Origin: Nitrospira sp.
Lineage (GTDB): Bacteria; Nitrospirota; Nitrospiria; Nitrospirales; Nitrospiraceae
Assembly (NCBI GenBank): GCA_030123605.1
Contig: CP126123.1
Coordinates: forward strand, 4,121,237 to 4,185,236
Direction of reading: 5' to 3'
DNA length: 64,000 bases
A program made the translations under genes and the position numbers. The notes under the pieces are model-generated. The model was given only the letters and a program-made list of their open reading frames with translations. It was not told the DNA's origin and did no database searches. Shown here one piece after another: positions 29,626 through 54,881 of the stretch (the first letter of the stretch is position 1; each line of letters opens with the position of its first letter).

Positions 29626-29658
29626 GGTTCCGTGGCGACACGCAAAAGATTACCGTCG

Positions 29659-29674: not shown

Positions 29675-29756
29675 CACTCCGGCAGTCCAACGAAAGCTCG
29701 GTCCGTGATCCGGAGGATCGCGGGGTCTGCGTTGAACGGCAAACAAGGAGGATGCG

Positions 29757-30626
29757 ATGGATTATGTGAAGCCTTACGGCGTGGTGGACAGTATGCTGGC
29801 TGGCGGCGCATTGAAGTTGAGCCTGCCGCCGCGCCAGCTTGTGCTTCGCGGCATGTTGGCCGGCGCCTATTTGGGCATCGGGACCAGCATGGCCGTGACG
29901 GCGGCGGTCGAGACCGGCTATTGGATCATCGGTAGTTTGCTGTTCCCGTTCGGCCTGGCCCTGGCGATTTTGCTCGGGGCTGAGATCATCACCGGCAGTT
30001 TCGCCTTGCTCCCCGTCGCAGTGGCCGACGGTCAGAAAAACGCCGGTCTCCGCCATGTGGTGACAAACATGGGGTGGGTATTTTTAGGCAATCTCCTCGG
30101 CAGCGTCTTGTATGCGGGCTTGTTCGCGATCGCGCTGACCACGGGAGGTGATGCTCCGGTCAATGCGGTCGGTGCCAAACTCATTGCGGTTGCCGAGGCG
30201 AAGACCAACTATTATGTGTCGCACGGCTCGGCCGGTCTCCTGGCGGCCTTCACCAAGGGGATATTGTGCAACTGGATGGTCAGCCTCGCAGTCGTCGCCG
30301 CCTATATGTCGACGTCGTTCTCCGGGAAAATCCTCGCCATCTGGGGGCCGACGCTGATGTTCTTTTCGCAGGGGTTCGAGCACGCGGTCGTGAATATGTT
30401 CTTGATGCCGGTCGCGATGTTCTTGGGAGGCAATATCACGGTCTCTACGTGGTGGTTGTGGAATCAGATTCCGGTGACCTTGGGAAATTTGGTCGGCGGG
30501 ATGGTCTTTACCGGTTTAGCGATGTACGCGGCCCATCGTGCCGTGGCCCCGGCGGCGCAGCCTGTCCCGGCGGCAGGCCAGACGAACGCTCGGTCCGAGC
30601 AAGCGGGCTACTCTCCTTCGTATTGA
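29757..30626 (+). CDS. Formate/nitrite transporter (FocA/NirC family)
   Basis: A 289-aa inner-membrane pentameric channel protein with six hydrophobic helices and the family features: AGAYLGIG in the first helix region, LGAEIITGSFALLP, CNWMVSLAVVAAYMSTSFSGKILAIWGP, and GFEHAVVNMFLMP with the conserved pore-region His. Members move nitrite or formate. Next to nitrite oxidoreductase genes, nitrite transport or nitrite leakage control is likely, but formate cannot be excluded, since Nitrospira can also use formate. A strong AAGGAGG site precedes the ATG, and a sigma54 promoter lies upstream. Confidence 0.92.
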   Translation: MDYVKPYGVVDSMLAGGALKLSLPPRQLVLRGMLAGAYLGIGTSMAVTAAVETGYWIIGSLLFPFGLALAILLGAEIITGSFALLPVAVADGQKNAGLRHVVTNMGWVFLGNLLGSVLYAGLFAIALTTGGDAPVNAVGAKLIAVAEAKTNYYVSHGSAGLLAAFTKGILCNWMVSLAVVAAYMSTSFSGKILAIWGPTLMFFSQGFEHAVVNMFLMPVAMFLGGNITVSTWWLWNQIPVTLGNLVGGMVFTGLAMYAAHRAVAPAAQPVPAAGQTNARSEQAGYSPSY

Positions 30627-30672
30627 ACCAGCGGGTCCTTCTCCCTTATCGCGACGGTGTCGGAGGACGATG

Positions 30673-32271: not shown

Positions 32272-33773
32272 CAGGTTCCACGACGGCGCGCCGGCTGCGG
32301 ATCGGTCTCGGGGTCGGCTGCGCGCTGTTCTTCGGCAGTTGTGCCTGGATCCCGAAGGGCGATCCGCCGGCCGAGTATCTCGAACCGCCGGAGATGAAGG
32401 AGACGCTGGAAGAGGTGACGAGCCGGCTTCAGCAATGGCCTGAGGACCGGTGGTGGGAACAGTTCGGCAATCCAGAACTGAACGAGCTGATCGAAACGGC
32501 CCTCAAGGACAATCCCGGACTGAAACATGCCTCGGCCAGGCTACGCCAGGCGGAAGCGCTCGTGAAGGTCGAAGGGGCGCGACTCTTGCCGTTTATGGAA
32601 GCCGAGGCGTCTCTCACCTATGAGCGCATTTCACAACACGGTGTCTTTGCCGCTCTGAATCCGGAGGTGGGCGGCATAAGAATCGCGTACGGGATCATCA
32701 ACCCGTTGAGCTTCCGGTACGAATTCGATTTCTGGGGGAAGAATCGCGCCATGCTCGAGGCGGCCTTGGGGCATGCGGCAGCCGAGGAGGCGGAAACCGC
32801 AGAGGTGCGTTTGCGGCTGACCGCCGGCATTGCACGCGCGTACTTCCGCGGACAAGCGCTCCAGCAGCAGCTCAATGTAGTGAAGACCATCGTCGGAATC
32901 CGGCGTGATCTCCAGAAGCTGGCGGAGACTAGGTTCCGACTCGGCCTGGACAACGACCAGCCGGTGAAGATCGCCGTGGCCGATTATGAAGCGGCCTTCA
33001 AACGGCAGGCAGCGGTTCGCGACCAACTGGATGTCCAGCGTCATTTGCTTGCCAGATTGGCGGGAAAGGGACCGGATGAGGCGATCCATTTGTTTGCGAA
33101 GCCACGAGTGGTTGTTCCCAATCAGATTGCGGCGCCCGACCACCTGTCCATCGGTTTGTTGGTCCATCGCCCAGACCTGGCTGCGGCCCTCTATCGAGCC
33201 CACGCCGCGTCGCGGATGGTCAAGGTCGCCAAGACACAATTCTATCCCACGATCGACCTGACGGGATTCGTGGGGTTCAATGCCTTGACGTTGACGAAGG
33301 GCACGGACAAACTTGCCAATTTCCTCTTCAGCGGTCAGAGCTTTTCGTATGGATTGGCTCCGGGGTTGCGCATGCCTTGGTTCGAAGGCGGCAGACTCCG
33401 GGGAGAGTTGGGGGCACAACGCGCCGAATATGACGCGGCGGTGGAGCTGTACAACGACACCTTGCTGGACGCGATGAGGGAGGTGGCCGACAGTTTGAGC
33501 GCCTGGCAAACGACCAAGGAAATGATGGAGTCTCACAGGCGCTTGCTCGCCTCGCTCGGCGCGGACTGGCGGCTGGCGAAGGTACGGCTCGTCAGCGGTC
33601 TCGACGACGATCGCGAGGTGTTGCGCCATCAACATCCGATGTTGGAGCAGGAATACGCTTTGAGGGCGTTGGAGAGCGATCAGTTGGTCGCCGCCGTCGA
33701 TCTCATCGAATCGCTGGGCGGGGGCTATCACAATCCGGACATCGAAAAACGGCCGAATCACAACCCGAGTTAA
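32268..33773 (+). CDS. NodT-type outer-membrane efflux lipoprotein
   Basis: A 501-aa TolC-superfamily outer-membrane factor with a lipoprotein signal (lipobox near FGSCAW, residue about 26) followed by the NodT-family opening WEQFGNPELNELIETALKDNPGLKHASARLRQAEA. Two helical efflux repeats follow. It overlaps the MFS gene by ATGA and lies 3 bp before the EmrA-like gene, so this is a complete tripartite export operon. Confidence 0.87.
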   Translation: MTGSTTARRLRIGLGVGCALFFGSCAWIPKGDPPAEYLEPPEMKETLEEVTSRLQQWPEDRWWEQFGNPELNELIETALKDNPGLKHASARLRQAEALVKVEGARLLPFMEAEASLTYERISQHGVFAALNPEVGGIRIAYGIINPLSFRYEFDFWGKNRAMLEAALGHAAAEEAETAEVRLRLTAGIARAYFRGQALQQQLNVVKTIVGIRRDLQKLAETRFRLGLDNDQPVKIAVADYEAAFKRQAAVRDQLDVQRHLLARLAGKGPDEAIHLFAKPRVVVPNQIAAPDHLSIGLLVHRPDLAAALYRAHAASRMVKVAKTQFYPTIDLTGFVGFNALTLTKGTDKLANFLFSGQSFSYGLAPGLRMPWFEGGRLRGELGAQRAEYDAAVELYNDTLLDAMREVADSLSAWQTTKEMMESHRRLLASLGADWRLAKVRLVSGLDDDREVLRHQHPMLEQEYALRALESDQLVAAVDLIESLGGGYHNPDIEKRPNHNPS

Positions 33774-33776
33774 TTT

Positions 33777-35288
33777 ATGACCACTACGACAACGTCGGAA
33801 ACGAATCCAGCTCCTTCATCCGGTTCACTCAGAATTCACCCCAAGGCCATTCGTGCCAGCCGGAATCGCCGGTTGCTGCTCGTCGCTTTGCTGATCCTGG
33901 TCGCCTCCGTCGGGTATTTCGTCTACTGGTGGACACACGACCGACACTGGGTCAAGACCGACAACGCCTACGTCACGGGCAACCTGGTGCCGGTCGCGGC
34001 GCAAGCCTCCGGTATCATCACGCAGGTGCTGTTCGAGGAGACGCAATTCGTGAACCGAGGCGACCTGATGATTCGTCTCGATGAGCACCTGGCCTACGCG
34101 GCCTTGGGTCGCGCCCGCGGACGATTGGGTGAAGAGGTTCGGCGCGTCGCCGCCCTGTTCATGACGAGGAAGCAGTTGGCGGAAAAATTGAAGTCGCGAA
34201 CCGCACGCTTGGGCCTGGCTGAACACGACATGGAACGCTATCAAAAGGCCTCTCCGAGCGGCGCGGTTTCCAAGCAAATCGTGCAAAACACGAGGGATGT
34301 AATCGCGTCCTTGGAAGCCGAGGTGCGGGAGACGCAGGCCGAGCTCGATACGCTCGATGCGCAGATCGGAGGCACGACGGTCGCGGCACACCCGGCCGTC
34401 GAATTCGCCAAGCATCAGCTCATCGACGCGCATCTGGAGTATGCTCGTCAACAAGTTCGGGCTCCGGTGTCCGGATACGTAGCCAAACGCAAGGCGCAAG
34501 TGGGAGACCGTGTGCAACCCGGCGCTCCGCTCATGACGATCGTGCCGCTGGACCATCTCTGGGTCGAGGCGAATTTGCGGGAAACGGAACTGCAGCACGT
34601 CAGGCCGGGGCAGCCGGCCTTGGTGAACGTGAGCCTGTACGGGTCGAAGCAGACCTTCCATGGCACCGTCGAGGGTTTGGTGCCGGGTAGCGGTAGTCCG
34701 TTCGCGCTGCTTCCGCCGGACAATTCCACGGGCAATTTCATCCACATCGTCGAGCGTGTGCCGGTGCGCATCGCGCTGCCGGCGGAGGAGCTGCGTGAAC
34801 ATCCGATCAGACCGGGACTTTCGACGGTGACGAGCATCAACATCACCGAGTCCGGCCAATCCGTCTGGTCGTCTTTGGCGACGGCGTCGACACACGAATA
34901 CGAAACCGATGTCTACGCGGATGAGCTGCCCTCGGCGGAATCCATGGCGAACGAGGTGATGGCGACGAATCTCGTCGTCGCGAACGAAATCGAACAATCC
35001 GACTTGTTGTTTACTCAAGAAGGCGAAGAGAGCGTTGCGCCGATAAAAGGACGATACGGAAGACCGGGGAAGGAATTCGCTCCGGATGCTCGAAGCCGTT
35101 CCGTTCAATCAGGCGTTGAGCCGGCGCAGCCCTTTGCGCCGCGTCGGAGTCCGGATCTCGGTCTCTCCACTGCACCGTTAACTCCGTCCGTTGGTCCCAG
35201 TACCGGGTCGTTGGGGCCTGAGGCTGGGCGGAATCCTGCCGGTTTAAAATTTGGCCGCGAACGAGATCGTGGACGGCAAGCGTTTTAG
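33777..35288 (+). CDS. EmrA/HlyD-type membrane fusion protein
   Basis: A 503-aa adaptor with one N-terminal membrane helix (about 33-53), the EmrA signature WVKTDNAYVTGNLVPVAAQASG, an alpha-hairpin (about 100-200), and a lipoyl/beta-barrel half (VRAPVSGYVAKRKAQVGDRV, then WVEANLRETELQHVRPGQ). It bridges the MFS pump and the NodT-like protein. About 100 C-terminal residues after the normal domain end are Ser/Pro/Arg-rich, without a recognisable domain; this extension is unusual for EmrA. Confidence 0.88.
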   Translation: MTTTTTSETNPAPSSGSLRIHPKAIRASRNRRLLLVALLILVASVGYFVYWWTHDRHWVKTDNAYVTGNLVPVAAQASGIITQVLFEETQFVNRGDLMIRLDEHLAYAALGRARGRLGEEVRRVAALFMTRKQLAEKLKSRTARLGLAEHDMERYQKASPSGAVSKQIVQNTRDVIASLEAEVRETQAELDTLDAQIGGTTVAAHPAVEFAKHQLIDAHLEYARQQVRAPVSGYVAKRKAQVGDRVQPGAPLMTIVPLDHLWVEANLRETELQHVRPGQPALVNVSLYGSKQTFHGTVEGLVPGSGSPFALLPPDNSTGNFIHIVERVPVRIALPAEELREHPIRPGLSTVTSINITESGQSVWSSLATASTHEYETDVYADELPSAESMANEVMATNLVVANEIEQSDLLFTQEGEESVAPIKGRYGRPGKEFAPDARSRSVQSGVEPAQPFAPRRSPDLGLSTAPLTPSVGPSTGSLGPEAGRNPAGLKFGRERDRGRQAF

Positions 35289-35535
35289 AATCGTTAAGGG
35301 CGCTTTTGTGATGAGCTCCCTGACTCCGTGTGCCCCATCCTGCCGAAGGTGGCAATTCTTCTGGCGCAATCGTGATCGGATTTGATTGTTGCCTGCTTGA
35401 ATGGTCTGCCACGAATCCATTATTTTCAACAGTGCTGGATAACTGCGTCCGACGAATTTATGATGTCGCCTCTCGTGCATTGCCGGCGAAATGGCCGTAG
35501 GCGCGGCGTGAGTGGTGTCGTTCAAGGAGTGGAAT

Positions 35536-37056
35536 GTGCGTAAAGTCGATCTGAGCTACCGAACCCTTCTCTCCGTGACCAATGTGCTGAATTCCCAGCA
35601 AAATAGACAGAACCTCTTCCGCGCGGTGACCGAGCAATTGGCCAAAGTCGTGCGATGGGAACGGGCGGGCATCACGGTATATGACCTGGAGGCCGATGCA
35701 TTCCGGTTTTATGCGGTCGAAACGAATCTCCCCAAAGTCGTGCTGCGCAGTGATGCGATGATTCCACGCGCGCAAAGTGCTGTTGGATGGGTCTATGACC
35801 ATCAATGTGTGCACGTACGTCCTCGTTTGCAGGAAGAACAACTGTTCATCGAAGATAAATGTTATTTGCAGGAAGGTCTTGGGCGGATGATCAATCTTCC
35901 CATGGTCGTGCAGGACTCCTGCCTCGGGACGTTGAATATCGGCAGCGTCGAAGCGGGTCTCCCGGATCCTGACGATGTGGAGTTTCTTCAGCAGGTGGCG
36001 ACGCAGATAGGGTTTGCGATCGCGCATGTCAACGCTTACGAAGAAATCAATCGTTTGCGCGAGCAACTGGCGCGGGAAAACGTCTACCTGACCGAAGAGT
36101 TAAAAACAACGCAAAATTACGATATGGTCGTAGGGCGAAGCCAAGTGTTCGGCCGGGTGCTTTCGCTGGCTAACCAGGCAGCCCCGACGACGGCCACCGT
36201 CCTGATTACCGGAGAAACCGGGACCGGAAAAGAGGTGTTGGCCCGTGCCATTCACGAACAGAGCCCTCGACGAGATCGGGCATTCGTGCGCCTCAACTGT
36301 GCTGCGTTGCCGGCCGGTCTCATTGAAAGCGAATTGTTCGGCCATGAGCGCGGCGCCTTTACCGGTGCAGCTCAACAACGTGTCGGGCGTTTCGAATTGG
36401 CCACCGGGGGCACCTTGTTTCTCGATGAGATCGGTGAAATGTCGTTGGAGGCGCAAGCTAAGCTGTTGCGTGTGCTGCAGGATGGCATGGTCGACCGAAT
36501 CGGTGGGACAAAGTCGATTCCGGTCGATGTGCGGGTGATCGCCGCGACGAATACCGATCTGCAAGCGGCGATTCAGCGAGGGAGGTTTCGCAGCGATTTA
36601 TATTATCGATTGAACGTTTTTCCTATTCACATGCCTTCCTTGCGGGAGCGTCCGGAAGATATTCCGATTCTCGCCAGACATTTCATGCGCTTTCATGCGC
36701 AGCGGTTGAAGCGTCCTTGCCGTGATTTCGATGGGCCGACAATGGAGCGATTGGTGCGCTATGAATGGCCGGGCAATGTACGAGAGCTTGAAAATCTCAT
36801 CGAGCGAGGGTTGATCCTCTGTCATGATCTCGTCCTTCGCATTGATCCGGCCATGGGTGACGTGCGGCTATCGGCGGAGGTGAGCCCTCGACGCACCCTT
36901 CAAGATGAAGAGCGTCACCATATTCTTCAGGCACTCACATTGGCGGATTGGCGCATCGAAGGTCCGAGCGGAGCTGCGGAACAACTGGGATTGGCGCCCA
37001 GCACACTTCGTAGTCGCATGTATCGTTTGGGGATTCGTCGTTCTCCACATTCATAA
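35536..37056 (+). CDS. GAF-domain sigma54-dependent transcriptional activator (FhlA/NorR-like layout)
   Basis: A 506-aa regulator with an N-terminal GAF sensor domain (about 15-165), AAA+ domain ([15 protein letters not shown] in [20 protein letters not shown]) and a C-terminal Fis HTH ([21 protein letters not shown]). It has no receiver, so it probably senses a small ligand directly. I chose GTG 35536, with AAGGAG at 6 nt, over GTG 35512. It lies directly upstream of nxrA2 on the same strand, and a consensus sigma54 promoter lies between them, so nxrAB2 is the likely target. What the GAF domain binds is unknown; nitrite, NO or a redox ligand are guesses. Confidence 0.9.
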
Positions 37057-37090
37057 TCCCTCCTCTCACCGAACGCCTCACCGACAAGTG

Positions 37091-37142
37091 CCCACGAAAT
37101 ATCGTGGTGCCATCTTCGTGTCCCACCACGATATTTCGCGGG
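37091..37142. repeat. Long inverted repeat between the GAF activator gene and nxrA2
   Basis: CGAAATATCGTGGTG at 37095-37109 and its exact reverse complement at 37124-37138 are separated by 14 bp, and pairing resumes outside after one mismatch. It starts 35 bp after the activator stop codon and ends 89 bp before the sigma54 promoter. Two readings are possible: an upstream activating sequence, or a transcript-end hairpin without a T run. Confidence 0.6.
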
Positions 37143-37230
37143 ATACGAGGCTTGTCGAGGTCCCCTCGGAAATTCGCCGATTATGTTTAGTAAATTCAAT
37201 GACATGGAAATCGAGATCGATACGCATGTT

Positions 37231-37246
37231 TGGCACATGAAGTGCA
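37231..37246 (+). promoter_or_regulatory. Sigma54 promoter of nxrA2
   Basis: TGGCACATGAAGTGCA carries the full TGGCAC -24 box and TGCA at -12 with exact spacing; position 12 is G rather than T. The leader to nxrA2 would be about 230 nt. The rest of 37057-37484 has no gene, apart from the inverted repeat upstream. Confidence 0.6.
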
Positions 37247-37484
37247 AAGGTTGGCCGCGTGATTTTTATGTTCTCTTTTACTTCTAACGGAAGGGTGTGG
37301 TGTCTGCAGATCAAGTAGTGCACCGCTGCGCTGTTGAGCGACCGGGTCACCGGCACAGCGGAACGTCACACGCCTGGAAAGGGGTTCATCATAAATTTAC
37401 GACGCCGGTCATCCTTTAAGTAGGGTCGGCGCTAAGGATGTATAGCGCCGGAGGTTGTTCTGTATTTTTACGAGGAGGGTTTTC

Positions 37485-40400
37485 ATGATGCAATTGTCAC
37501 GGAGACAGTTTCTCAAGATCTCGGCGGGTACCGTCGCGGCCGTGGCCGTGGCGGACAAAGTCCTCGCGCTGACCGCGTTGCAACCGGTCATCGAGGTGGG
37601 GAACCCGCTGGGCGAGTATCCGGACCGGTCGTGGGAGCGGGTGTATCACGACCAGTATCGGTATGACTCGTCCTTTACGTGGTGCTGCTCCCCGAACGAC
37701 ACGCACGGGTGCCGCATCCGGGCCTTCGTCCGGAACGGCGTCGTGATGCGTGTGGAGCAGAACTATGACCACCAGACCTATGAAGACCTCTACGGCAACC
37801 GCGGTACGTTTGCGCACAATCCGCGCATGTGCTTGAAGGGGTTCACCTTCCATCGGCGCGTGTACGGGCCCTATCGCTTGAAGGGGCCCTTGATGCGGAA
37901 GGGCTGGAAGCAGTGGATGGACGATGGCTCGCCCGAGCTGACCCCGGATGTGAAGCGCAAGTACAAATTCGACAGCCGGTTCCTCGACGACCTGAATCGG
38001 GTCTCGTGGGATACGGCCTTCACCTATGTGGCCAAAGGCGCCATTCTCATTGCCACGCGGTACAGCGGCGAGGCGGGGGCCCGCCGACTCCGGGAGCAGG
38101 GGTATGCGCCGGAAATGATCGAGATGATGAAGGGCGCGGGCGTGCGCTGCTTCAAACATCGAGCCGGCATGCCGGTGCTCGGTATCATCGGCAAGATGAT
38201 GAACACCCGCTTTAACGGCGGATGCCTGCCGCTGCTGGACTCCTGGATCCGTAAGGTGGATTCGGATAAGGCGCAAGGCGGCAAATATTATACGAACTAT
38301 ACCTGGCACGGCGACCAAGATCCGTCCCATCCGTTCTGGAACGGGACGCAGAACTGCGACGTGGACCTCTCGGACATGCGCTTCTCCAAGCTGAACACCA
38401 GCTGGGGCAAGAACTTCACTGAGAACAAGATGCCGGAAGCGCACTGGAAGCTCGAGTCGATCGAGCGCGGCGCGCGGATCGTCGTCATGACGCCGGAATA
38501 CAACCCGACGGCCTACCGCGCCGACTACTGGATTCCTGTGCGGCCGGAGACCGATGGGGCGAACTTCCTCGGTGCCAGCAAGATTATCTTCGATGAAAAT
38601 CTGCAGGACATCGACTACATCAAGGAATTCACCGACTTGCCGCTGCTCATTCGGACGGATACCTTGCAGTATCTCGATCCGCGTGACGTGATTGCGGACT
38701 ACAAGTTCCCGGATTTCTCCAAGAGCTATTCGGGGCGCATCCAGTCGTTGAAGCCGGAACAGATTGAACGGCTCGGCGGCATGATGGTGTGGGACTTGGC
38801 CAAGAACCAAGCGGTCCCCCTGCACCGGGAACAGTGCGGCTTCCACTTCAAGGCGAGCGGGATCGACGTCGGCCTGACCGGCACCTATCGGGTGAAGTTG
38901 CTCAATGGCCGTGAAATCGACGTGATGCCGCTGTATCAGATGTATCAGGTGCACCTCCAGGACTACGACCTGGACACCACGCACCAAATCACACGAGCCC
39001 CGAAGGACCTCATCGTTCGGTGGGCGCGGGATTCGGGGACGATCAAGCCGGCCGCCATGCACAACGGCGAAGGCGTCTGCCACTATTTCCACATGACGGA
39101 AATGGGGCGGGCGGCGGCGTTCGTGATGACCATCACGGGTAACATCGGCAAGTTCGGCACCGGATGCCATACCTGGTCCGGCAACTACAAGGCTGGGATC
39201 TGGAACGCCGTGCCGTGGTCGGGTGCGGGGTTGGCGGTGCATACGGGAGAGGATCCGTTCAATCTGACCTTGGATCCGAACGCCCACGGCAAAGAGATCA
39301 AGACTCGCTCCTATTACTATGGGGAAGAAGTCGGCTACTGGAACCATGGGGATACGGCCTTGATCGTCAACACGCCGAAGTACGGACGCAAGGTGTTCAC
39401 CGGCAAGACCCACATGCCGTGCGCCAGCAAAGTGCGCTGGGTGACCAACGTGAACATTTTGAATAATTCCAAGCACCACTATGACATGGTGAAGAACGTC
39501 GATCCGAACATCGAGATGATCGTCACGCAAGACATCGAGATGACCTCGGACGTCAACCATGCGGACGTGGCGTTTGCGTGTAACTCGTGGATGGAGTTCA
39601 CCTATCCAGAAATGACCGGCACGGTCTCCAACCCGTGGATTCAGATCTGGAAGGGAGGGATTCGTCCGCTGTACGACACCCGGAACGACGCCGACACCTT
39701 TGCCGGTGTGGCCGCGAAGCTGTCAGAAATGACCGGCGATGCCCGGTTCCGCGGGGTCTTCCACTTCGTCTACATGAACCGGGTCGATGTCTATCCGCAG
39801 CGGATGCTGGATGCCAGCTCCACCTGCTACGGGTACAGCGCCGACGTCATGTTGAAGTCGGAAAAGGGCTGGATGGTGATGGGGCGGACCTATCCGCGGC
39901 ATCCGCTCTGGGAGGAGACCAACGAGTCCAAGCCTCAGTGGACGCGGTCGGGCCGCATCGAGACCTACCGCATCGAGCCGGAAGCCATTGAGTACGGAGA
40001 GAACTTCATCGTCCACCGGGAAGGCCCGGAGTGTACGCCGTACTTGCCGAATGCGATCATGACCAGTAACCCGTACGTCCGACCGGACGACTACGGAATT
40101 CCCATCACGGCGCAGCACCATGACGACAAGACGGTGCGGAACCTCAAGCTGCCGTGGCAGGAAATCAAGCGGCATCCGAACCCGTTGTGGGAGAAGGGCT
40201 ACCAGTTCTACTGCGTCACGCCCAAGACCCGGCACCGGGTGCACAGCCAATGGTCGGTGAACGACTGGGTGCAGATCTACGAGTCGAACTTCGGCGATCC
40301 GTACCGCATGGACAAACGGACACCGGGCGTCGGCGAGCACCAGTTGCACATCAACCCGCAGGCGGCGAAAGACCGCGGCATCAACGACGGCGACTACGTC

Positions 40401-40925
40401 TTTGTCGACGGGAACCCGGTGGACCGGCCCTATCGCGGCTGGAAACCCTCGGATCCGTTCTACAAGGTGTCGCGGTTGATGATCCGGGCCAAGTACAACC
40501 CGGCCTATCCGTACCACGTCACGATGGCGAAACATGCCCCGTACGTGTCGACGGCGAAGTCGGTGAAGGGCCACGAGACGCGGCCGGACGGGCGCGCCAT
40601 CGCGGTGGACACCGGCTATCAGTCCAACTTCCGGTACGGCGCCCAACAGTCGTTCACACGGAATTGGCTGATGCCGATGCACCAAACCGACTCTCTCCCC
40701 GGCAAACATACGATTGCCTGGAAGTTCAAATGGGGCTTTACCATCGATCACCATGGCATCAACACGGTGCCGAAGGAATGCTTGATCCGCATCACGAAGG
40801 CGGAAGACGGCGGCATCGGAGCCCGTGGTCCGTGGGAACCGGTCCGGACCGGGTTTACGCCGGGTCAGGAAAACGAGTTCATGATCAAGTGGCTCAAGGG
40901 GGAACATATCAAGATCAAGGTCTAG
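37485..40925 (+). CDS. nxrA: Nitrite oxidoreductase alpha subunit, copy 2
   Basis: A 1146-aa molybdenum catalytic subunit for nitrite oxidation, about 98% identical to copy 1. Beyond the N-terminal tip I count about twenty substitutions, five of them in one short patch (MTSNPYV here, FSNNPFI in copy 1, at roughly residue 860). The Tat signal (SRRQFLKISAG), the C-x3-D-x3-C iron-sulfur segment and the putative Mo-ligand Asp in LLDSW are identical. GAGGAGGG precedes two adjacent ATGs (37485 and 37488); either could be used. nxrB2 follows after an identical 108-bp spacer. Upstream are a sigma54 promoter and a GAF-type activator gene instead of the receiver-type regulator at copy 1. Confidence 0.97.
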   Translation: MMQLSRRQFLKISAGTVAAVAVADKVLALTALQPVIEVGNPLGEYPDRSWERVYHDQYRYDSSFTWCCSPNDTHGCRIRAFVRNGVVMRVEQNYDHQTYEDLYGNRGTFAHNPRMCLKGFTFHRRVYGPYRLKGPLMRKGWKQWMDDGSPELTPDVKRKYKFDSRFLDDLNRVSWDTAFTYVAKGAILIATRYSGEAGARRLREQGYAPEMIEMMKGAGVRCFKHRAGMPVLGIIGKMMNTRFNGGCLPLLDSWIRKVDSDKAQGGKYYTNYTWHGDQDPSHPFWNGTQNCDVDLSDMRFSKLNTSWGKNFTENKMPEAHWKLESIERGARIVVMTPEYNPTAYRADYWIPVRPETDGANFLGASKIIFDENLQDIDYIKEFTDLPLLIRTDTLQYLDPRDVIADYKFPDFSKSYSGRIQSLKPEQIERLGGMMVWDLAKNQAVPLHREQCGFHFKASGIDVGLTGTYRVKLLNGREIDVMPLYQMYQVHLQDYDLDTTHQITRAPKDLIVRWARDSGTIKPAAMHNGEGVCHYFHMTEMGRAAAFVMTITGNIGKFGTGCHTWSGNYKAGIWNAVPWSGAGLAVHTGEDPFNLTLDPNAHGKEIKTRSYYYGEEVGYWNHGDTALIVNTPKYGRKVFTGKTHMPCASKVRWVTNVNILNNSKHHYDMVKNVDPNIEMIVTQDIEMTSDVNHADVAFACNSWMEFTYPEMTGTVSNPWIQIWKGGIRPLYDTRNDADTFAGVAAKLSEMTGDARFRGVFHFVYMNRVDVYPQRMLDASSTCYGYSADVMLKSEKGWMVMGRTYPRHPLWEETNESKPQWTRSGRIETYRIEPEAIEYGENFIVHREGPECTPYLPNAIMTSNPYVRPDDYGIPITAQHHDDKTVRNLKLPWQEIKRHPNPLWEKGYQFYCVTPKTRHRVHSQWSVNDWVQIYESNFGDPYRMDKRTPGVGEHQLHINPQAAKDRGINDGDYVFVDGNPVDRPYRGWKPSDPFYKVSRLMIRAKYNPAYPYHVTMAKHAPYVSTAKSVKGHETRPDGRAIAVDTGYQSNFRYGAQQSFTRNWLMPMHQTDSLPGKHTIAWKFKWGFTIDHHGINTVPKECLIRITKAEDGGIGARGPWEPVRTGFTPGQENEFMIKWLKGEHIKIKV

Positions 40926-40943
40926 GACCGAGGCGCACCGACT

Positions 40944-40959
40944 GAGCGGCATGCCGCTC
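40944..40959 (+). repeat. 16-bp perfect palindrome in the nxrA2-nxrB2 spacer
   Basis: The same sequence and position as in copy 1 (10522-10537), inside a 108-bp spacer that is identical between the two operons. It may be an mRNA processing or stability hairpin between the subunit genes. Confidence 0.5.
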
Positions 40960-41033
40960 GGCACGTCGGCCGCAGGACTTGAAACGAATGCGAACCATTC
41001 ACCGCGTGATCATGTTCAGAAGGAGGATGTACA

Positions 41034-42323
41034 ATGCCAGAAGTCTATAACTGGCAACTGGGACGGAAGATGCTGTATCCGTATGAGGAGCGGCATCCGA
41101 AGTGGCAGTTTGCCTTTGTGTTCAACATCAATCGCTGTTTGGCGTGTCAGACCTGTTCGATGGCCGACAAGTCGACCTGGCTCTTCTCGAAGGGGCAGGA
41201 GTACATGTGGTGGAACAACGTGGAGACGAAGCCCTACGGCGGGTATCCGCAGTTCTACGACGTGAAGATCACCCAGCTCATCGAGCAGGTGAATCCGGGC
41301 GGGCAGGTGTGGAACGTGCGGGTGGGCCGCAAGCACCATGCGCCGTACGGGGTGTTCGAAGGGATGACGATTTTCGACGCGGGGGCCAAGGTGGGCCAGG
41401 CGGCGATCGGGTACATCCCCACGGACCAGGAATGGCGGTTCGTGAATATCTATGAAGACACGGCGACCTCGATGCGGGCCATTGTCGAGAACATCGACAA
41501 GTCGGGCTTCACGCGGGACGAACCGTGGAAGCTTACCGGCAGCAGCCTGCCGGAGCACGAGACGTACTTCTTCTATCTGCAGCGGATCTGCAACCACTGC
41601 ACGTATCCTGGGTGTCTGGCGGCCTGTCCGCGGAAGGCGATCTACAAGCGGCCGGAAGACGGCATCGTGTTGATCGACCAGAACCGGTGCCGAGGGTACA
41701 AGAAGTGCGTGGAGCAGTGCCCGTTCAAGAAGCCGATGTACCGGGGCACGACCCGGGTGTCGGAGAAGTGTATCGCCTGTTATCCGCGGATCGAGGGGAA
41801 GGACCCCTTGACAGGCGGTGAGCCGATGGAAACGCGCTGTATGGCGGCCTGCGTGGGGAAGATCCGCATGCAGAGCCTGGTGCGGATCGGCGAAGACGGG
41901 CTGTGGGCGGAAGACCGGTGGCATCCGCTGTACTACGCGATCCGCGTGGAGCAGGTGGCGTTGCCGCTGTACCCGCAGTGGGGCACGGAGCCCAACGGGT
42001 ACTACATTCCGCCGCGGCATGCGCCGCGGGGCTACAACCGGCAGATGTTCGGGCCGGGGGTGGACAACGCGATCGAGAAGTATCTCGTGCCGAGTCGGGA
42101 ACTGTTGGCGGTGCTCCAACTCTGGAGAGCCAGCCAGCAGATCATCTTCCGGTACGACGTCATTCCGGGCCCGAAGGTGTTTGAGACCCAGATCCACGGG
42201 AAGCGGTTCGACATGTACAACGATACCGTGCTGGGCTTCAACAAGTCGGGCAAGGAAGTGGCGCGGATTCAGGTCGAAGAGCCGATCTATATTCGGCCGG
42301 CCGAACGCGTGAACTGGCTGTAG
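41034..42323 (+). CDS. nxrB: Nitrite oxidoreductase beta subunit, copy 2
   Basis: A 429-aa four-cluster iron-sulfur subunit, identical to copy 1 except Lys and Thr in place of Arg and Ser near residue 170 (EPWKLTGSS). All cluster cysteines are conserved. An AGAAGGAGG site lies just before the ATG. It forms the electron-transfer partner of NxrA2 and, given the near identity, presumably of NxrA1 too. A strong terminator-like palindrome follows the stop codon. Confidence 0.97.
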   Translation: MPEVYNWQLGRKMLYPYEERHPKWQFAFVFNINRCLACQTCSMADKSTWLFSKGQEYMWWNNVETKPYGGYPQFYDVKITQLIEQVNPGGQVWNVRVGRKHHAPYGVFEGMTIFDAGAKVGQAAIGYIPTDQEWRFVNIYEDTATSMRAIVENIDKSGFTRDEPWKLTGSSLPEHETYFFYLQRICNHCTYPGCLAACPRKAIYKRPEDGIVLIDQNRCRGYKKCVEQCPFKKPMYRGTTRVSEKCIACYPRIEGKDPLTGGEPMETRCMAACVGKIRMQSLVRIGEDGLWAEDRWHPLYYAIRVEQVALPLYPQWGTEPNGYYIPPRHAPRGYNRQMFGPGVDNAIEKYLVPSRELLAVLQLWRASQQIIFRYDVIPGPKVFETQIHGKRFDMYNDTVLGFNKSGKEVARIQVEEPIYIRPAERVNWL

Positions 42324-42335
42324 GGTCATGCAGCC

Positions 42336-42371
42336 AACGGATGGGAGGAGGCATGCCTCCTCCCATCCGTT
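42336..42371 (+). terminator. Hairpin after nxrB2
   Basis: Two perfect 17-nt arms (starting AACGGATGGGAGG and ending CCATCCGTT) flank AT, 12 bp after the nxrB2 stop codon. The stem is very stable but no T run follows, so it may act as an mRNA 3'-end stabiliser or a factor-assisted terminator. It is unrelated to the terminator of copy 1. Confidence 0.65.
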
Positions 42372-42407
42372 ATCCTAGACCTCTCGCAAGGCTTCACCGT
42401 CGTGTCA

Positions 42408-43151
42408 ATGAATCAGGTGATTCCGAAGAGTGAGCGGCCCGAGGATGCTCTGCTTTCGGATCGTCAAGTAGATCGGAGAGCGTCGCACGCATCGATGGGT
42501 ATACGCGGTCGGTTCATCGGACTCCTCCTCGTCGTCACGGCTGCCTTGGCCGTCTCTTTCTTCGGCCATACCTTTCTCTTCGAACAATGGCGGGTTCAGC
42601 ATGAGCGGCAGCTCCATCGCTCGAAAATTCTCGAGGAACTGTTGCGGTTGCAGCGCCTTGTCATGGACGTGGAGACGAGTTTCCGCGGGTACCTGCTGGC
42701 TGAACAGCAATCCTTTCTCGAACCGATCCATTCAGCCGAAGACCGGCTGGCAACCGGCATTGTGCGGTTGGCCGACCTGACCGTCGACATACCGGGCCTG
42801 CAGGCCGGTGTACAGGTACTTTCCTCCCGCTTCAAGGAGTTCATCGACAGTAAAAAGCAGTTGGTGGCGCTTGTCGGGACGGACCAGCAAGACCAAGTTC
42901 GGTTGTATGTGCGAAACGGAAACGGCCGCGCGTTGTTCTTGACCATCGAAAAGGCCATCGGAGATTTCGAAATCCGGATTGAGCGTGAATTACCGGTCGA
43001 ATCTATGACCTATGAGTCATGGATGCAGCGGGTCAAATGGCAGCTTCTCCTCTTGGAAGTCCTTGGGGTCCTTGTCTGTGTCTCCCTCACCGTGGCTTGG
43101 AGCCTTCCGAAAAACACGTCTTTCAAGCAGGGTGTTCATTTCCTCCATTGA
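42408..43151 (+). CDS. CHASE3-only membrane protein (no output domain)
   Basis: A 247-aa protein with TM1 near residues 38-58, a periplasmic CHASE3-type helical domain (VMDVETSFRGYLLAEQQSFLEP is the hallmark) and TM2 near 213-235, then only about a dozen residues. CHASE3 normally feeds signals into kinases, cyclases or chemoreceptors, but here no output domain follows. The start is uncertain (GTG 42402 or ATG 42408; no strong ribosome site). It follows nxrB2 by about 85 bp beyond a strong hairpin. It could be a decoy or subunit for a kinase, or a truncated relic. Confidence 0.75.
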   Translation: MNQVIPKSERPEDALLSDRQVDRRASHASMGIRGRFIGLLLVVTAALAVSFFGHTFLFEQWRVQHERQLHRSKILEELLRLQRLVMDVETSFRGYLLAEQQSFLEPIHSAEDRLATGIVRLADLTVDIPGLQAGVQVLSSRFKEFIDSKKQLVALVGTDQQDQVRLYVRNGNGRALFLTIEKAIGDFEIRIERELPVESMTYESWMQRVKWQLLLLEVLGVLVCVSLTVAWSLPKNTSFKQGVHFLH

Positions 43152-43228
43152 GACAACTCTGGAATCCTGTCTCTCGTCCAATCTGAGTCGGTTGGCTTGT
43201 TTCTTCGCTGAAGGCTGATCTAACAGCG

Positions 43229-43254
43229 ATCCGCACAGTGCGATAGGTGCGAAT
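43229..43254 (-). promoter_or_regulatory. Three-half-site element, upstream activating sequence candidate (peptide gene)
   Basis: On the minus strand: ATTCGCAC, CTATCGCACT, GTGCGGAT. The element is two GCAC half-sites 11 bp apart followed by an inverted GTGCG, 26 bp in total. The same arrangement occurs at 54856-54881, 59091-59116 and 62709-62734. Its centre is about 71 bp upstream of the -24 box at 43312. It is read in the opposite orientation to its promoter, which enhancer-type sites tolerate. Confidence 0.6.
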
Positions 43255-43311
43255 CCGCTCGGTTTATGGCCTCAAAAGCTCAAAAACATTGACTTTCAAC
43301 GTTGCTCGTAA

Positions 43312-43327
43312 TGGCATGCCCCTTGCT
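43312..43327 (+). promoter_or_regulatory. Sigma54 promoter of the 33-aa peptide gene
   Basis: TGGCATGCCCCTTGCT matches TGGCACG-N4-TTGCW at every position except C to T at position 6. Transcription would begin near 43339, giving a short leader of about 27 nt containing AAAGGAG before the ATG at 43366. Confidence 0.75.
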
Positions 43328-43365
43328 TTATCAATGATTATCACGAGCAAGAAAGGAGTCGACTC

Positions 43366-43467
43366 ATGGTGCAGATGTTGAAAAAGTTCGGAGACCGAGA
43401 ATTGGCCTGGGTGATGTTGGCAGTGGCCGCTGTTGCCATCTGGAGCACATGGGGGCTGGTTTCCTAG
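43366..43467 (+). CDS. 33-aa single-span membrane peptide under sigma54 control
   Basis: A 33-codon frame with AAAGGAG at 8-9 nt before ATG. The peptide has a charged N-terminal part (MVQMLKKFGDRE) and one hydrophobic helix (WVMLAVAAVAIWSTWGLV), so the N-terminus is probably cytoplasmic. It is too short for usual gene finders, but a near-consensus sigma54 promoter, a shared upstream element and a good ribosome site all support it. I know no homologue. Small single-span peptides often serve as accessory subunits of membrane enzymes or pumps, or as kinase modulators. It lies 1 kb downstream of nxrB2 but has its own promoter. Confidence 0.7.
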   Translation: MVQMLKKFGDRELAWVMLAVAAVAIWSTWGLVS

Positions 43468-43866
43468 CCTATTGAGACGATCGTCGCTTGTTTTAAGTCG
43501 GGTGACTTGTTTTCGATGAGAACTGATCCGTGTTACTGGTTCGAATCAAAAGAACAACGTCAGGTTTCGTTCAGGTTGTTCCCTAGCTTGAGGCTTTGAG
43601 TCTTCCTCTCACCTTATCTGCTCAAGCACTTCCAACACCACTTTCCTAATCATGTTCCTCATCTGATCTTTCGTACACGAGCGCGAAGGCATTGGTTCTG
43701 GCAAGTCGAGTAAGCCATTGGAACGCTTCGCTTTGCTCAGGCTGCCTCAGTTCCGCACGGTAACGCGTGCGAAAGTCATCTCATTTTTTGAGACCTCCGC
43801 ACCATGGTCGATTGGGACGTCATGCCGCTTCGGTTTTTTTCTCGACCGAACTCACAGGTTGCACGG
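43468..43866. other. Non-coding interval with a shortened copy of the three-half-site element
   Basis: No coding frame with support is seen. Positions 43751-43774 read TTCCGCAC, GGTAACGC, GTGCGAAA: the same outer half-sites as the 26-bp elements, but only 8 bp between them and no central GCAC. I find no convincing -24/-12 box beside it, so it may be a degenerate or unrelated site. Confidence 0.35.
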
Positions 43867-50079: not shown

Positions 50080-51317
50080 ATTTTTTGGCGCGCCGGTTTC
50101 CCGTCCGGCAGGTTGTACGGAGAAGCGTGGACCTCTTGGCCGTCTTTGAGGCCGCCCTTTCCGACCACGACCACGTCCTCTGTGCCGGTCAAACCGTCGG
50201 TCACTTCGACCCAGAGGCCGTCGTCGAGCCCGGTCTTGATGCGGGTGAGTGTGGCCTTCCCCTGATCGATCACGTAGAGGGACTTCTCCTGTCCGCCCTT
50301 GGTCGTGATCACGGCCGCGGGAGGAACAGCGAGGGTATCCGGATGTGTTTCGAGGTGCAGCGTGACGTTGGCGAACATGCCCGGTTGGAGTTTGCGTGCC
50401 GCATTGTCGAGGTCGATCTCGACGAGCAACGTTCGCGTGGCCGGATCCAGGGCTTCGGTCGTGCGGGTCACGGTCGCCTCGAATCGCTCCTGAGGCAGTT
50501 CGCGGATTGTGAGGACGGCGGGAGTCCCGGCCTTTGAGAGCAGCGCGGACTCTTGCGGTACGTTGACGTAGACCCGTACCGTGTCCATGTCCATGATGGT
50601 GAAGAGGGGGACCGCCTGGGTGGCAGAACCGGTCGCGGCTTGGATCAAGGCGCCGGGATCCGCAAACCGCGCCGTAATCACCCCTGCGAACGGCGCATAG
50701 ACCTTGGTGTATTCGAGCATCGTCCGTCGGCTGTCGCGGAGATGTTTTGCCGACTGGGCCGCCGAGCGGGCGACGTCCACGTCCTGTTTGGCGATGATGT
50801 CGTGATTCTCCTGCCAAACACTGAGGTACCGTTCGAAGGTGATGCGCTTGATCTCGTAATCGGCCTCGGCCTGTTTGTAATGGTCGTCGATTTCAGGTGC
50901 ATCGATCACGGCCAAGAGCTGTCCTTTCTTGACGACATCACCCTTGTCGGCTCCGATCCATTTCAAGTAACCGGAGACCTTGCCGTACAGGGTGGCTTGG
51001 TACCAGGGGGAAATATTGGCCGGCAACGTAAGGGTCCTGACGATGTCGCGACGCTGCGGCTTGAGCACCTGCACGGCGGGGACGGACGAACTCCGAGCCT
51101 CCGGTCCATGCGGCGTTGCGGCGGCCGGCTGCTGCGGAGTCGAAGAGACCGCCGGTTCTTCGCGCCCGTTGAGCGCAATGACCGCGATCACGGCGGCCAA
51201 CCCTCCGAGCACGACGCCGGCGACGATCAAGCGCGCCGGCTTCATATGGGAGCGAGGTTCCGGGAACTGCGACCTCGTGCGGGGGTCTGCCGGTGTTGCC
51301 ATCGGGTTCTCTCTCAT
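50076..51317 (-). CDS. RND membrane fusion protein (AcrA/MdtA-like)
   Basis: A 413-aa adaptor with an N-terminal membrane anchor (about 28-48), lipoyl and hairpin domains (VSGYLKWIGADKGDVVKKGQLLAVIDAPEIDDHYKQAEA at about 115-150; YAPFAGVITARFADPGALI at about 210-230), and a beta-barrel with VYVNVPQESAL and LTIRELPQERFEATVTRTTEALDPATRTLLVEIDL. It connects the RND pump to one or more of the three TolC-like channels. Its ATG overlaps the RND stop codon (ATGA). Confidence 0.9.
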   Translation of the reverse strand: MRENPMATPADPRTRSQFPEPRSHMKPARLIVAGVVLGGLAAVIAVIALNGREEPAVSSTPQQPAAATPHGPEARSSSVPAVQVLKPQRRDIVRTLTLPANISPWYQATLYGKVSGYLKWIGADKGDVVKKGQLLAVIDAPEIDDHYKQAEADYEIKRITFERYLSVWQENHDIIAKQDVDVARSAAQSAKHLRDSRRTMLEYTKVYAPFAGVITARFADPGALIQAATGSATQAVPLFTIMDMDTVRVYVNVPQESALLSKAGTPAVLTIRELPQERFEATVTRTTEALDPATRTLLVEIDLDNAARKLQPGMFANVTLHLETHPDTLAVPPAAVITTKGGQEKSLYVIDQGKATLTRIKTGLDDGLWVEVTDGLTGTEDVVVVGKGGLKDGQEVHASPYNLPDGKPARQKI

Positions 51318-54300
51318 CCCCTACTTGGGCTTTCGATCGGCTGTCGGCGGTGGACGTCGGCCGATCTACGCCGGACGAGCGCGTGTAAGACCGGGATGAA
51401 CAGGAGCGTCATGAACGTCGATACCGTCAAGCCGCCGATCACCGCGCGCGCCAGGGGCATGTTCGTTTCGCTGCCTTCGCCGATGCCGAGCGCCATGGGG
51501 CCCAGTCCGATCACGGTGGCCAGCGACGTCATGAGGATCGGCCTGATCCGGAGGCGGCCTGCTTCCACGACGGCCTCTTCGAGGGGCATCCCTTCGTTCA
51601 GTTTGTTATTGGCGAAATCGACGAGCAGGACGCTGTTCGAGACGACGATACCGATCATCATGAGCGTGCCGATCAACGATTCGACGTTGACGGAGGTATG
51701 GGTCAGCAACAACATCCAGATGACGCCGATAAACCCCAGCGGGACGGCGAACATGACGACGAAGGGGTCGAGCCAGGACCGGAAGAGCCCGACCATCACC
51801 AGATAGATCAGTACCATCGCCAGGGGCAAGGTTCCGGCGAAGCCTTTCAAGGCAGCCCGCAGGCTGTCGATTTCCCCCTTTATGGCGACCCGCACGTCCT
51901 TCGGAATCTCGACGCGCTTGATCGCCTCTTCGATCTTGGTCGCGACGCGGCCGAGATCGTTTCCCGGCACGCTCACCAGCACGTCCATCGTTCGTTGCAG
52001 ATTGTAGTGATCGACGGTTTCAGGTCCGCTGCGCCGGGTGACGTCGATCAAATCCCTGAGCAGGATCGGTGAGCCGTGGTTGGCGGCGACGTGAGGGAGT
52101 TGCGGCCGTTCGGTGAAGGGGGTCTGTTGCATGACGAGCGAACTGCCGATCGTTCTGTTCCCTCCCACGCTGACGGCGGCCGGCCGCTCCACCTTCGTGC
52201 CGACCAAGGGGAGATTGAGAAAGTCTTCGAAGGCGACGAGAATTTGTTCGGGGAACTGTGTGACGACGAAATAGGCGTTGTTGGTCCGAGGATCGATCCA
52301 GTAGCCGGGGTTCAAGGTCACGTTGGAGGCCAGACCGGTAATGAGATCGGTGACGATCTGCCGTTCGTTCAACCCGGCGGTCAGGGCCTTGTCTCGATTG
52401 ATGTCCAGATGAATCTCGGGATAGTCCATGCCCTGCCGTACCTGAACGTCCGCCGTGCCGACCTCGGCGGCTGCGGCATCGCGGAGGCGTCCGGCGGTGT
52501 CGGCCAGATCGGACATGTTCTGCCCGCTGACCTTGATGTCGATCGGGGCGGGCAATCCGAAATTGATCACGTCGCTCACGATGCCACCGGTCTGGAACGA
52601 AAACTTCAAACCCGGGAGTGCTTCGCGAAGGGTGGTACGCAAGCGAGCGATGATGTCGTCGGTTCGGCTCTCATGGTCCCGCGCCAGGCTGACCAGGATG
52701 AAGGCCTGGTGCGGACCGTTGACGGGGGAGTACAGCACCATCCAGCCTTGCGGCAAACCGATGTTCGAGACAAGCTGATCCAACTCCTCGGCGGGAACGG
52801 CTTCGCGGATGAATCCTTCGATTTTCGCGATGATCGCTTCCGTTTTCTCGATCCTGGTTCCTTCCGGGGCGGAGACGTTCAAGATGAACGACCCCGCGTC
52901 CACCTTCGGGAAAAATTCCGTCGCCAGTTTCGGTGTGACCAGGAGCGTGCCGCCGAACGCGATCATCACCGTGATGATCACGACGGCCTTGTGGCCGAGA
53001 CACCATCGCAGGACGACGAGATACCGCTCGACGAAGGGGTCGAAGAGATTGACGCGATTCCACCAGGCGGCGAGTCCGCGCTGAGGAGGGGCCGGATGCC
53101 CCGCCTCTCCATGACCCTTCCGAAAAAGCCAGGCGAGGGAGACGGGAGCCACCGTGAGCGCGACGAAATAAGAGGCCATCATGGCGTAGGCGACGGTGAG
53201 CGCCAAGGGTACGAACAGGAACTTGATGATGCCCGTGAAGAACGCGATCGGCAGAAAGACGAGGAAGACGGTGAGAGTGATGATGAGCATCGGCAACGCG
53301 ACCTCGGTGACGGCGTCGCCGGCCGCGTCCTTTGCCGACTTGCCCATGTCCATATGGCGGTGGGTGTTCTCCACGACCACGATGGCGTCGTCGACGAGCC
53401 GTCCGACGGCCAGCGCCAACCCTCCCAAGGTCATGATGTTGACCGTGTGGCCGGTGAAATACAGACCGATGAACGCCGCCGTCACGGACAGCGGAATGGC
53501 CATCGCGATGATGATCGTATACCGCAGACTGCCTAGGAACAGCAGGACCATCAGGCAGGCGAGGCCGCCTCCCAACAGTCCCTCATGTTCCAAGGTATGG
53601 ATCGCTTGGCGGATATAGAGCGACTGGTCGAACAGCAGCTTGACCGTCAGGTCCTTCGGAATGCCGACCAGCTTGGGGATCACGTCCTTGATGCCGTCGA
53701 TCACCTGCAGCGTGTTGGCGCCGGCCTGCTTCATGATCGGCAGATAGACCGCCCGATTGCCGTTGATGCGGACGATGTTGACCTGCACCATCGTCGAGTC
53801 GACGGCTTTGCCGACGTCGCGCAGATAGAGCGGCACGCCGTTGACCATTTTGATCGGGATCTCGTTCATCTGATCCACGACTTTGATCATGCTGTTGGTA
53901 TAGACGTTGTAATCGAAGTCGCCGATCTTGACGTCTCCGGCCGGCAACAGCACGCTCTGCGCATTGACGGAGTTGACGATCTCGTGCGTGGACACCCCGC
54001 GGGCCATCATCCGTTCCGGGTCGAGAAAAACCGTGATTTGGCGCACGGTTCCGCCGAAGGTCGTGGGGAAGGAGATGCCGGGCACGTGGCCGAGCTGCGG
54101 GCGAACGTTGAAGTAGGCGAGGTCGCGCACTTCCTTTTCCGTCATCGTCTCGCTGCTGGTGGTCTGGACTGCGATGGGCAGACTCGCCGCGCCGAACTTG
54201 ATGATGATGGGGGGGAAAATGCCTTGCGGCAAATAACGCAGATTCGAATAGGTCAGACTCGTGATTTCGGCGACGGCCGCATTGACGTCATAAGAAGAGT

Positions 54301-54580
54301 GAAAATAGATCTTGATCAGACTGACACCGGGCAACGACCGCGATTCGATGTGCTCGATGTAGGATGCTTGCAGGTAGGCCTGTTCGAGGCGAAGCGTGAC
54401 GGCCCCTTCGATCTCCGATGGTCCCATGCCCTTGTAGAACGTCGCGACTGCGATCACCGGCAAGTTGATCTCCGGAAAAATGTCCACCACCATGTTCTGG
54501 TAGGAGACGATTCCGAGAATGACGAAGATCAGGCTGATCGCTGCGACGGCGAAGGGGTTTTTCAGGGCGGCACGGACCAT
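51314..54580 (-). CDS. RND efflux transporter of the HAE1/AcrB-like class
   Basis: A 1088-aa proton-driven inner-membrane pump with the full RND plan. The N-terminus is NPFAVAAISLIFVILGIVSYQNMVVDIFPEINLPVIAV, TM4 contains GGLALAVGRLVDDAIVVVENTHRH with the paired Asp residues used in proton relay, and the C-terminal half repeats the fold. Substrates could be drugs, lipids or metabolites. GGAGG lies about 9 nt before the ATG. It is the first gene of a five-gene operon (pump, adaptor, three TolC-like proteins), preceded by a sigma54 promoter and a three-half-site element. Confidence 0.92.
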   Translation of the reverse strand: MVRAALKNPFAVAAISLIFVILGIVSYQNMVVDIFPEINLPVIAVATFYKGMGPSEIEGAVTLRLEQAYLQASYIEHIESRSLPGVSLIKIYFHSSYDVNAAVAEITSLTYSNLRYLPQGIFPPIIIKFGAASLPIAVQTTSSETMTEKEVRDLAYFNVRPQLGHVPGISFPTTFGGTVRQITVFLDPERMMARGVSTHEIVNSVNAQSVLLPAGDVKIGDFDYNVYTNSMIKVVDQMNEIPIKMVNGVPLYLRDVGKAVDSTMVQVNIVRINGNRAVYLPIMKQAGANTLQVIDGIKDVIPKLVGIPKDLTVKLLFDQSLYIRQAIHTLEHEGLLGGGLACLMVLLFLGSLRYTIIIAMAIPLSVTAAFIGLYFTGHTVNIMTLGGLALAVGRLVDDAIVVVENTHRHMDMGKSAKDAAGDAVTEVALPMLIITLTVFLVFLPIAFFTGIIKFLFVPLALTVAYAMMASYFVALTVAPVSLAWLFRKGHGEAGHPAPPQRGLAAWWNRVNLFDPFVERYLVVLRWCLGHKAVVIITVMIAFGGTLLVTPKLATEFFPKVDAGSFILNVSAPEGTRIEKTEAIIAKIEGFIREAVPAEELDQLVSNIGLPQGWMVLYSPVNGPHQAFILVSLARDHESRTDDIIARLRTTLREALPGLKFSFQTGGIVSDVINFGLPAPIDIKVSGQNMSDLADTAGRLRDAAAAEVGTADVQVRQGMDYPEIHLDINRDKALTAGLNERQIVTDLITGLASNVTLNPGYWIDPRTNNAYFVVTQFPEQILVAFEDFLNLPLVGTKVERPAAVSVGGNRTIGSSLVMQQTPFTERPQLPHVAANHGSPILLRDLIDVTRRSGPETVDHYNLQRTMDVLVSVPGNDLGRVATKIEEAIKRVEIPKDVRVAIKGEIDSLRAALKGFAGTLPLAMVLIYLVMVGLFRSWLDPFVVMFAVPLGFIGVIWMLLLTHTSVNVESLIGTLMMIGIVVSNSVLLVDFANNKLNEGMPLEEAVVEAGRLRIRPILMTSLATVIGLGPMALGIGEGSETNMPLARAVIGGLTVSTFMTLLFIPVLHALVRRRSADVHRRQPIESPSRG

Positions 54581-54757: not shown

Positions 54758-54773
54758 AGCAAAAGGAGCGCCA
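54758..54773 (-). promoter_or_regulatory. Sigma54 promoter of the RND/triple-TolC operon
   Basis: The minus strand reads TGGCGCTCCTTTTGCT, which fits TGGCAC-N5-TTGCT except A to G at position 5. The leader to ATG 54580 is about 165 nt. Confidence 0.65.
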
Positions 54774-54855
54774 GAGTCCGTCCCGTGCTCGTTCCTGTCA
54801 TTTCCCACCGTGATCCGCATCGTGTTGAGCGAACAGATGACGTGCAAACGAGCAG

Positions 54856-54881
54856 TTCCGCACGGCACGCACGGTGCGATA
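54856..54881 (-). promoter_or_regulatory. Three-half-site element, upstream activating sequence candidate (RND operon)
   Basis: Plus-strand reading: TTCCGCAC, GGCACGCACG, GTGCGATA. Its centre lies about 97 bp upstream of the -24 box of the RND promoter, a normal distance for an NtrC-type activator. Confidence 0.6.

Follow-up and report, generated by a model that had tools for sequence, protein, structure and literature searches.

A 33-amino-acid single-helix membrane protein of Nitrospira with its own sigma54 promoter and enhancer, and its possible role in a transport module

INTRODUCTION

The gene for the E. coli small protein AcrZ lies outside the operon of its pump. AcrZ itself (49 aa, one helix) acts on the tripartite pump AcrAB-TolC (PMC10710835). 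In the WatS1/WatABO system of Methylomonas sp. DH-1, one transcription factor activates the pump together with separately encoded polypeptides of ~50 aa, four of which have one predicted helix, and WatS1 raises acetate tolerance solely when the pump is present (PMC10355033). A small membrane protein can also act on a regulatory system: MgrB, a 47-aa inner-membrane peptide, belongs to the regulon of the kinase that it inhibits (PMC2789325).

Genome annotation easily overlooks small membrane proteins, and little is known of how nitrite-oxidizing bacteria regulate their genes. We describe the gene of a 33-aa single-helix membrane protein in a 64,000-nucleotide stretch of a Nitrospira genome (the window), together with its promoter, its enhancer, its probable activator and the genes that accompany it among 175 genomes of the family.

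RESULTS

The 33-aa frame and its promoter are conserved

The elements proposed in a sequence-only reading of this interval, namely the sigma54 box, the AAAGGAG motif and a 33-codon frame with one transmembrane helix, were all confirmed in place (Table 1). The GG to GC spacing of the box is the canonical 10 nt, and we infer that transcription starts near 43338. The single hydrophobic helix occupies the C-terminal half of the product (residues ~16-33, mean Kyte-Doolittle 1.86) and, because the positive charges all lie on its N-terminal side, an N-in, C-out topology is predicted. Since a terminator-like hairpin is found 3' of the ORF, the unit looks monocistronic. The peptide has no family match in Pfam or NCBIfam, and a profile search of the PDB gave no significant relative (best E 0.23).

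Table 1. Features of the peptide locus and of related sites in the window
Feature	Position	Strand	Remarks
EBP_RR2, NtrC-type sigma54 response regulator	25985-27565	-	Probable UAS activator, by co-occurrence
HK2, CHASE3-HAMP-PAS-histidine kinase	27348-29486	-	Partner of EBP_RR2
Degenerate UAS variant before FNT	29498-29522	+	3-nt instead of 4-nt spacer
Sigma54-like box upstream of FNT	29659-29674	+	AGGCATGCGGTTTGCT
FNT, formate/nitrite transporter	29757-30626	+	Pfam PF01226, E 1e-61
MFS exporter	30538-32271	+	Pfam MFS_1; EmrB-like by context
Outer-membrane efflux channel (OEP)	32268-33773	+	
HlyD/EmrA-type adaptor	33777-35288	+	Usual upstream neighbour of peptide
nxr cassette (GAF-sigma54 regulator, nxrA, nxrB)	35512-42323	+	Between HlyD and peptide; outside module
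Stand-alone CHASE3 protein	42402-43151	+	Directly after nxrB2; resembles HK2 sensor domain
Enhancer (UAS) of peptide	43232-43258	+	CGCACAGTGCGATAGGTGCGAATCCGC; 27 bp, conserved block in upstream alignments
Sigma54 -24/-12 box of peptide	43312-43327	+	TGGCATGCCCCTTGCT; full match to TGGCAYR-N4-TTGCW
Shine-Dalgarno AAAGGAG	43352-43358	+	7 nt ahead of ATG
33-aa single-helix membrane protein	43366-43467	+	MVQMLKKFGDRELAWVMLAVAAVAIWSTWGLVS; ATG at 43366, 33 codons, TAG stop ends at 43467; from orthologs, dN/dS, hydropathy
Terminator-like hairpin with T-rich tail	43483-43506	+	Region has 3 such vs 0.9 expected; weak alone
UAS of RND pump operon	54852-54878	-	Sigma54 box TGGCGCTCCTTTTGCT at 54758-54773; RND 51314-54580
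UAS of second kinase/regulator operon	59087-59113	-	Sigma54 box TGGCACTTCTCTTGCT at 59006-59021
Genes of second kinase/regulator operon	57097-58722 and 55704-57206		UAS at 59087-59113

The reading frame proved to be conserved in other Nitrospira. With tblastn, the peptide was matched in 45 of the 175 family genomes at E <= 0.1, and clear orthologs (E below 1e-8) were found in 36, among them 25 of the 29 genomes of the same genus. Synonymous and nonsynonymous changes were far from equal in rate, with a mean dN of 0.088 and a mean dS of 1.15 (dN/dS ~0.08) over 25 distinct same-genus sequences, and the variable sites at codon positions 1, 2 and 3 numbered 13, 7 and 28 of 33. Judged by these patterns, the ORF is a genuine gene under purifying selection, and neither of the outcomes named against it in the sequence-only reading occurred. 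Because the unit is short, looks monocistronic and has a hairpin resembling a terminator, it could also specify a small regulatory RNA in which the ORF is incidental, but we rejected this as most improbable given the third-position bias, the low dN/dS, the unconserved leader and 3' region and the lack of any Rfam match.

Even among distant members (an example is MRRFLDKCGDRELFWMMMALIGLLVIGLNTFPIV), residues G9, R11 and W15 never vary, and D10 and E12 hardly do. The peptide bears a near-invariant GDRE motif at its N-terminus, and it ends in WSTWG, replaced by WGMWG in one genome (G062). A 42-aa version is present in G008, and in G007 and G152 the motif forms the N-terminal anchor of a periplasmic domain that is BamE-like by a sub-threshold Pfam match (E 0.004). 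Weak BamE-like periplasmic proteins with the enhancer and promoter of the peptide were seen at three loci (L052, 3079-3642; L059, 3065-3631; L128, 11576-12109), two of them bearing the GDREL-W helix as N-terminal anchor. A scan of public genomes with a peptide profile gave 21 loci, including FP929003.1 (Candidatus Nitrospira defluvii); 20 are titled Nitrospira or Nitrospiraceae, and the remaining one is an 'uncultured Nitrosospira' bin named NOB2.

The sigma54 promoter is kept in the same-genus orthologs examined and in nearly all orthologs overall; it has decayed in G006. Genome-wide regulon searches were done by pattern matching. For the strict pattern TGGCAYRNNNNTTGCW, the 4.32-Mb genome has 13 matches versus one for the reversed control; with at most one mismatch, the sigma54 pattern occurs six times in the window versus 1.8 expected. 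On the point that a real, regulated gene with one helix stands here, the sequence-only reading was right.

Two other loci in this genome carry a one-helix protein behind a strict sigma54 box. The first (L171/L212, genome positions 2525608-2525796) encodes 32 aa (MELVMGGLLIGVSGMLILLIVAAWKGKETGSH); 27 of the 29 genomes of the genus have it, and the box stands at all 20 loci examined. The second (L172/L194, 2608059-2608231) encodes 38 aa (MENAVGLIITVVVFSALIGGWVADLLRDAGPEAVPRRR) and was matched in 18 of 29, again with the box at every locus (18/18). With these two conserved families, sigma54-driven microproteins look recurrent in Nitrospira. A sigma54 box at 3267859-3267874 (L041) precedes a possible 25-aa membrane peptide (MFWTIMIVATYVAGVYLIRLVWWQE).

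A conserved enhancer precedes the peptide promoter

Alignment of the upstream regions revealed a conserved block, the UAS, which was missed in the sequence-only reading and is newly recognised here; most of the remaining intergenic sequence is unconserved. It starts exactly 80 bp before the start of the sigma54 box and has the consensus CGCACNGTGCG-N4-GTGCG-N3-YCGC. Allowing two mismatches, we found eight matches in this genome versus none for the control, and the UAS is present in 75 of the 175 family genomes, with ~1 control match.

The distance from UAS to box is 79-83 bp before every peptide with both elements recognised, distant forms included, with G006 as the exception among orthologs. 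The assignable targets at this spacing are all peptide-family or BamE-like proteins; one site at 82 bp (L130, G008) is without an assigned product. For other targets, comprising the formate/nitrite transporter, an RND pump, the second kinase/regulator, a porin, a CBS protein and a DUF488 protein, the distance to the box is mostly 89-95 bp or ~103-105 bp, longer by roughly one or two helical turns. Steps of ~10-12 bp would fit an activator whose bound positions are phased along the helix. Upstream of FNT, the window has only a degenerate UAS, ~160 bp from the sigma54-like box, and a better copy of this 3-nt-spacer variant is found in G044. For a further copy in the window (62705-62731, minus strand, one mismatch), neither a sigma54 box nor a target gene could be recognised.

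The sigma54 box had been taken to link the peptide to an envelope regulon. Other envelope genes do share its regulon, but the link runs through the enhancer and its activator and not through the box, since sigma54 boxes elsewhere also precede flagellar, LpxC and unrelated genes.

EBP_RR2 is the probable activator

Orthologs of EBP_RR2 occur in 69 of the 75 genomes with a UAS versus 21 of the 100 without, as raw counts from lists transcribed by hand from the search tables and uncorrected for shared ancestry. Where the two share a contig they are less than 25 kb apart in 37 of 41 genomes, the largest of these distances being 18.6 kb. EBP_RR2 is also present in 35 of the 36 peptide genomes, and 55 further genomes have it without a strict peptide. 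On this co-occurrence, EBP_RR2 is the probable activator of the peptide UAS. EBP_RR (55704-57206) was considered as a general activator and rejected on two grounds: its orthologs are associated with neither the peptide nor the UAS, and its recognition helix is unlike that of EBP_RR2. The stand-alone CHASE3 protein has a possible link to HK2.

The peptide accompanies a transport module

Comparison of neighbouring genes by tblastn with the window proteins gave a recurrent order, in which the EBP_RR2-HK2 pair is divergent from FNT-MFS-OEP-HlyD and the peptide follows. It is found in several genomes of genus g15, in g16 and in the same-genus genome G044, and its FNT-to-peptide part in G006 (g4). 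HlyD is directly upstream of the peptide in G025 (same genus), whereas some g15 genomes have an RND operon separating the two. The window keeps the order from 25985 to 43467, broken by the nxr cassette and the CHASE3 gene. In G032 some 1.9 Mb separate the peptide from both the pump and EBP_RR2, with enhancer and promoter still kept. In NCBIfam, the FNT protein scores under the cut-offs of both FocA and NirC.

In this genome, as in several relatives, the peptide adjoins nxrB2 and the CHASE3 gene, and the mode of membrane attachment of the Nitrospira NXR is an open question (PMC6606698); the peptide could accordingly be pictured as anchoring the upstream-encoded nitrite oxidoreductase in the membrane or as one of its accessory subunits. 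We consider this very unlikely and rejected it on synteny outside this lineage. The peptide stands by the export operon without nxr in g4, g15, g16 and G044, no nxr was found in the 20 kb covered in g15, and most of the family is without a clear peptide ortholog. Constant linkage of peptide and nxr was not found, and the earlier description of the peptide as 'beside nxrAB2' is misleading, since it follows HlyD with no intervening nxr in other genera, in G044 and in G025. The adjacency is explained by the nxr cassette sitting between the peptide and its usual transport partners, and shows that proximity to nxrAB can mislead. The window holds two inverted nxrAB-like copies (9149-14023 and 37455-42323), each near a different sigma54 regulator.

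Scored across the 175 genomes, the peptide and an MFS ortholog (at least 74% identity) occur together in 33, the peptide alone in three, the MFS alone in one and neither in 138, again uncorrected for shared ancestry. Two of the three peptide genomes without an MFS ortholog have a HlyD ortholog, and the third is G062, with the altered end. Because EBP_RR2 is found in so many genomes without a strict peptide, the peptide on these counts is tied more tightly to the pump than to the regulator.

DISCUSSION

Co-regulation and co-occurrence favour a role in transport, and we give an even chance to the proposal that the peptide is a sigma54-induced, N-in single-helix modulator of the FNT/MFS/OEP/HlyD module. 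HK2 would phosphorylate EBP_RR2, which would bind the enhancer at 43232-43258 and fire the promoter at 43312. EBP_RR2 would also switch on FNT and, via the FNT promoter, probably the MFS-OEP-HlyD operon. The peptide would insert in the inner membrane with the GDRE N-terminus in the cytoplasm and the WSTWG end at the periplasmic face. There it would bind a membrane protein of the module, at best guess the MFS exporter, and either stabilise the bound protein or tune the range of its substrates. Nitrite, nitrous acid or some other weak acid may be the stimulus, a guess prompted by the presence of FNT and by how the organism lives. The peptide would thus be a single-helix small protein in an efflux-pump regulon, where we infer control of the pump genes from the upstream FNT promoter. 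The sequence-only reading had named a pump, a kinase or a respiratory complex as possible partners; a pump or transporter is the best supported of these, and synteny makes the respiratory NXR unlikely. Against a modulator stand the peptide's own promoter, outside the pump operon, the degenerate UAS before FNT in this genome, the decayed peptide promoter of G006, and the distant relatives in G007, G152 and G008, which persist without a close pump ortholog and track EBP_RR2 more than the pump.

It is for these distant forms, BamE-like anchors included, that feedback on the kinase is kept as the main rival, although we regard it as doubtful. A peptide made when the kinase/regulator system fires would, as MgrB does, bind the kinase (here HK2) in the membrane and adjust its activity. 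That system probably controls the peptide promoter, EBP_RR2 accompanies the peptide in all but one of its genomes and persists with the distant forms, and in this lineage a stand-alone CHASE3 protein is encoded directly upstream. The many genomes with EBP_RR2 and no strict peptide argue against feedback, whereas the peptide follows the pump, and conservation falls on the cytoplasmic GDRE and on the helix, not on a periplasmic segment. A quite improbable alternative is a general effector of membrane or envelope stress, whose target would be the lipid bilayer and not one transporter, or which would work with a nearby Band7/SPFH protein. Several loci of g1 (the genus of the window), as well as loci of g14, g15 and g16, have Band7/SPFH genes within ~10 kb, and the RND pump operon and second kinase/regulator carry the same enhancer, but the conserved GDRE and W15 and the tight co-occurrence with the pump would be left unexplained.

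More broadly, and as a tentative possibility, Nitrospira may run a set of stand-alone membrane microproteins, with no fewer than three conserved families in this genome, through sigma54 and dedicated enhancers, tuning transporters or kinases post-translationally. The 33-aa protein would then adjust the nitrite/formate channel and the weak-acid export module, and so be the cell's answer to stress from nitrite or nitrous acid. With the gene, its promoter and enhancer, a probable activator and kinase and a candidate partner in hand, a nitrite or weak-acid regulatory circuit in Nitrospira becomes directly testable.

The described systems resemble this locus in different respects. Published sigma54 regulons of the bacterial exterior tie promoters and enhancer-binding proteins to envelope and transport genes, as here; unlike them, this locus has a specific enhancer, a probable activator and a microprotein as the most constant target (PMC3162934). 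MgrB, of the PhoQ/PhoP system, is likewise a small inner-membrane peptide in a two-component regulon (PMC2789325), but it acts on the kinase, whereas the distribution of the 33-aa peptide matches that of the pump better than that of the regulator. WatABO combines an RND pump with a LysR-type regulator, in place of the MFS/HlyD/OEP proteins, FNT and sigma54 two-component system found here. AcrZ binds the RND protein AcrB, and the putative partner of our peptide is of the MFS type. WatS1 and AcrZ, likened by description, are precedents for the proposed mechanism.
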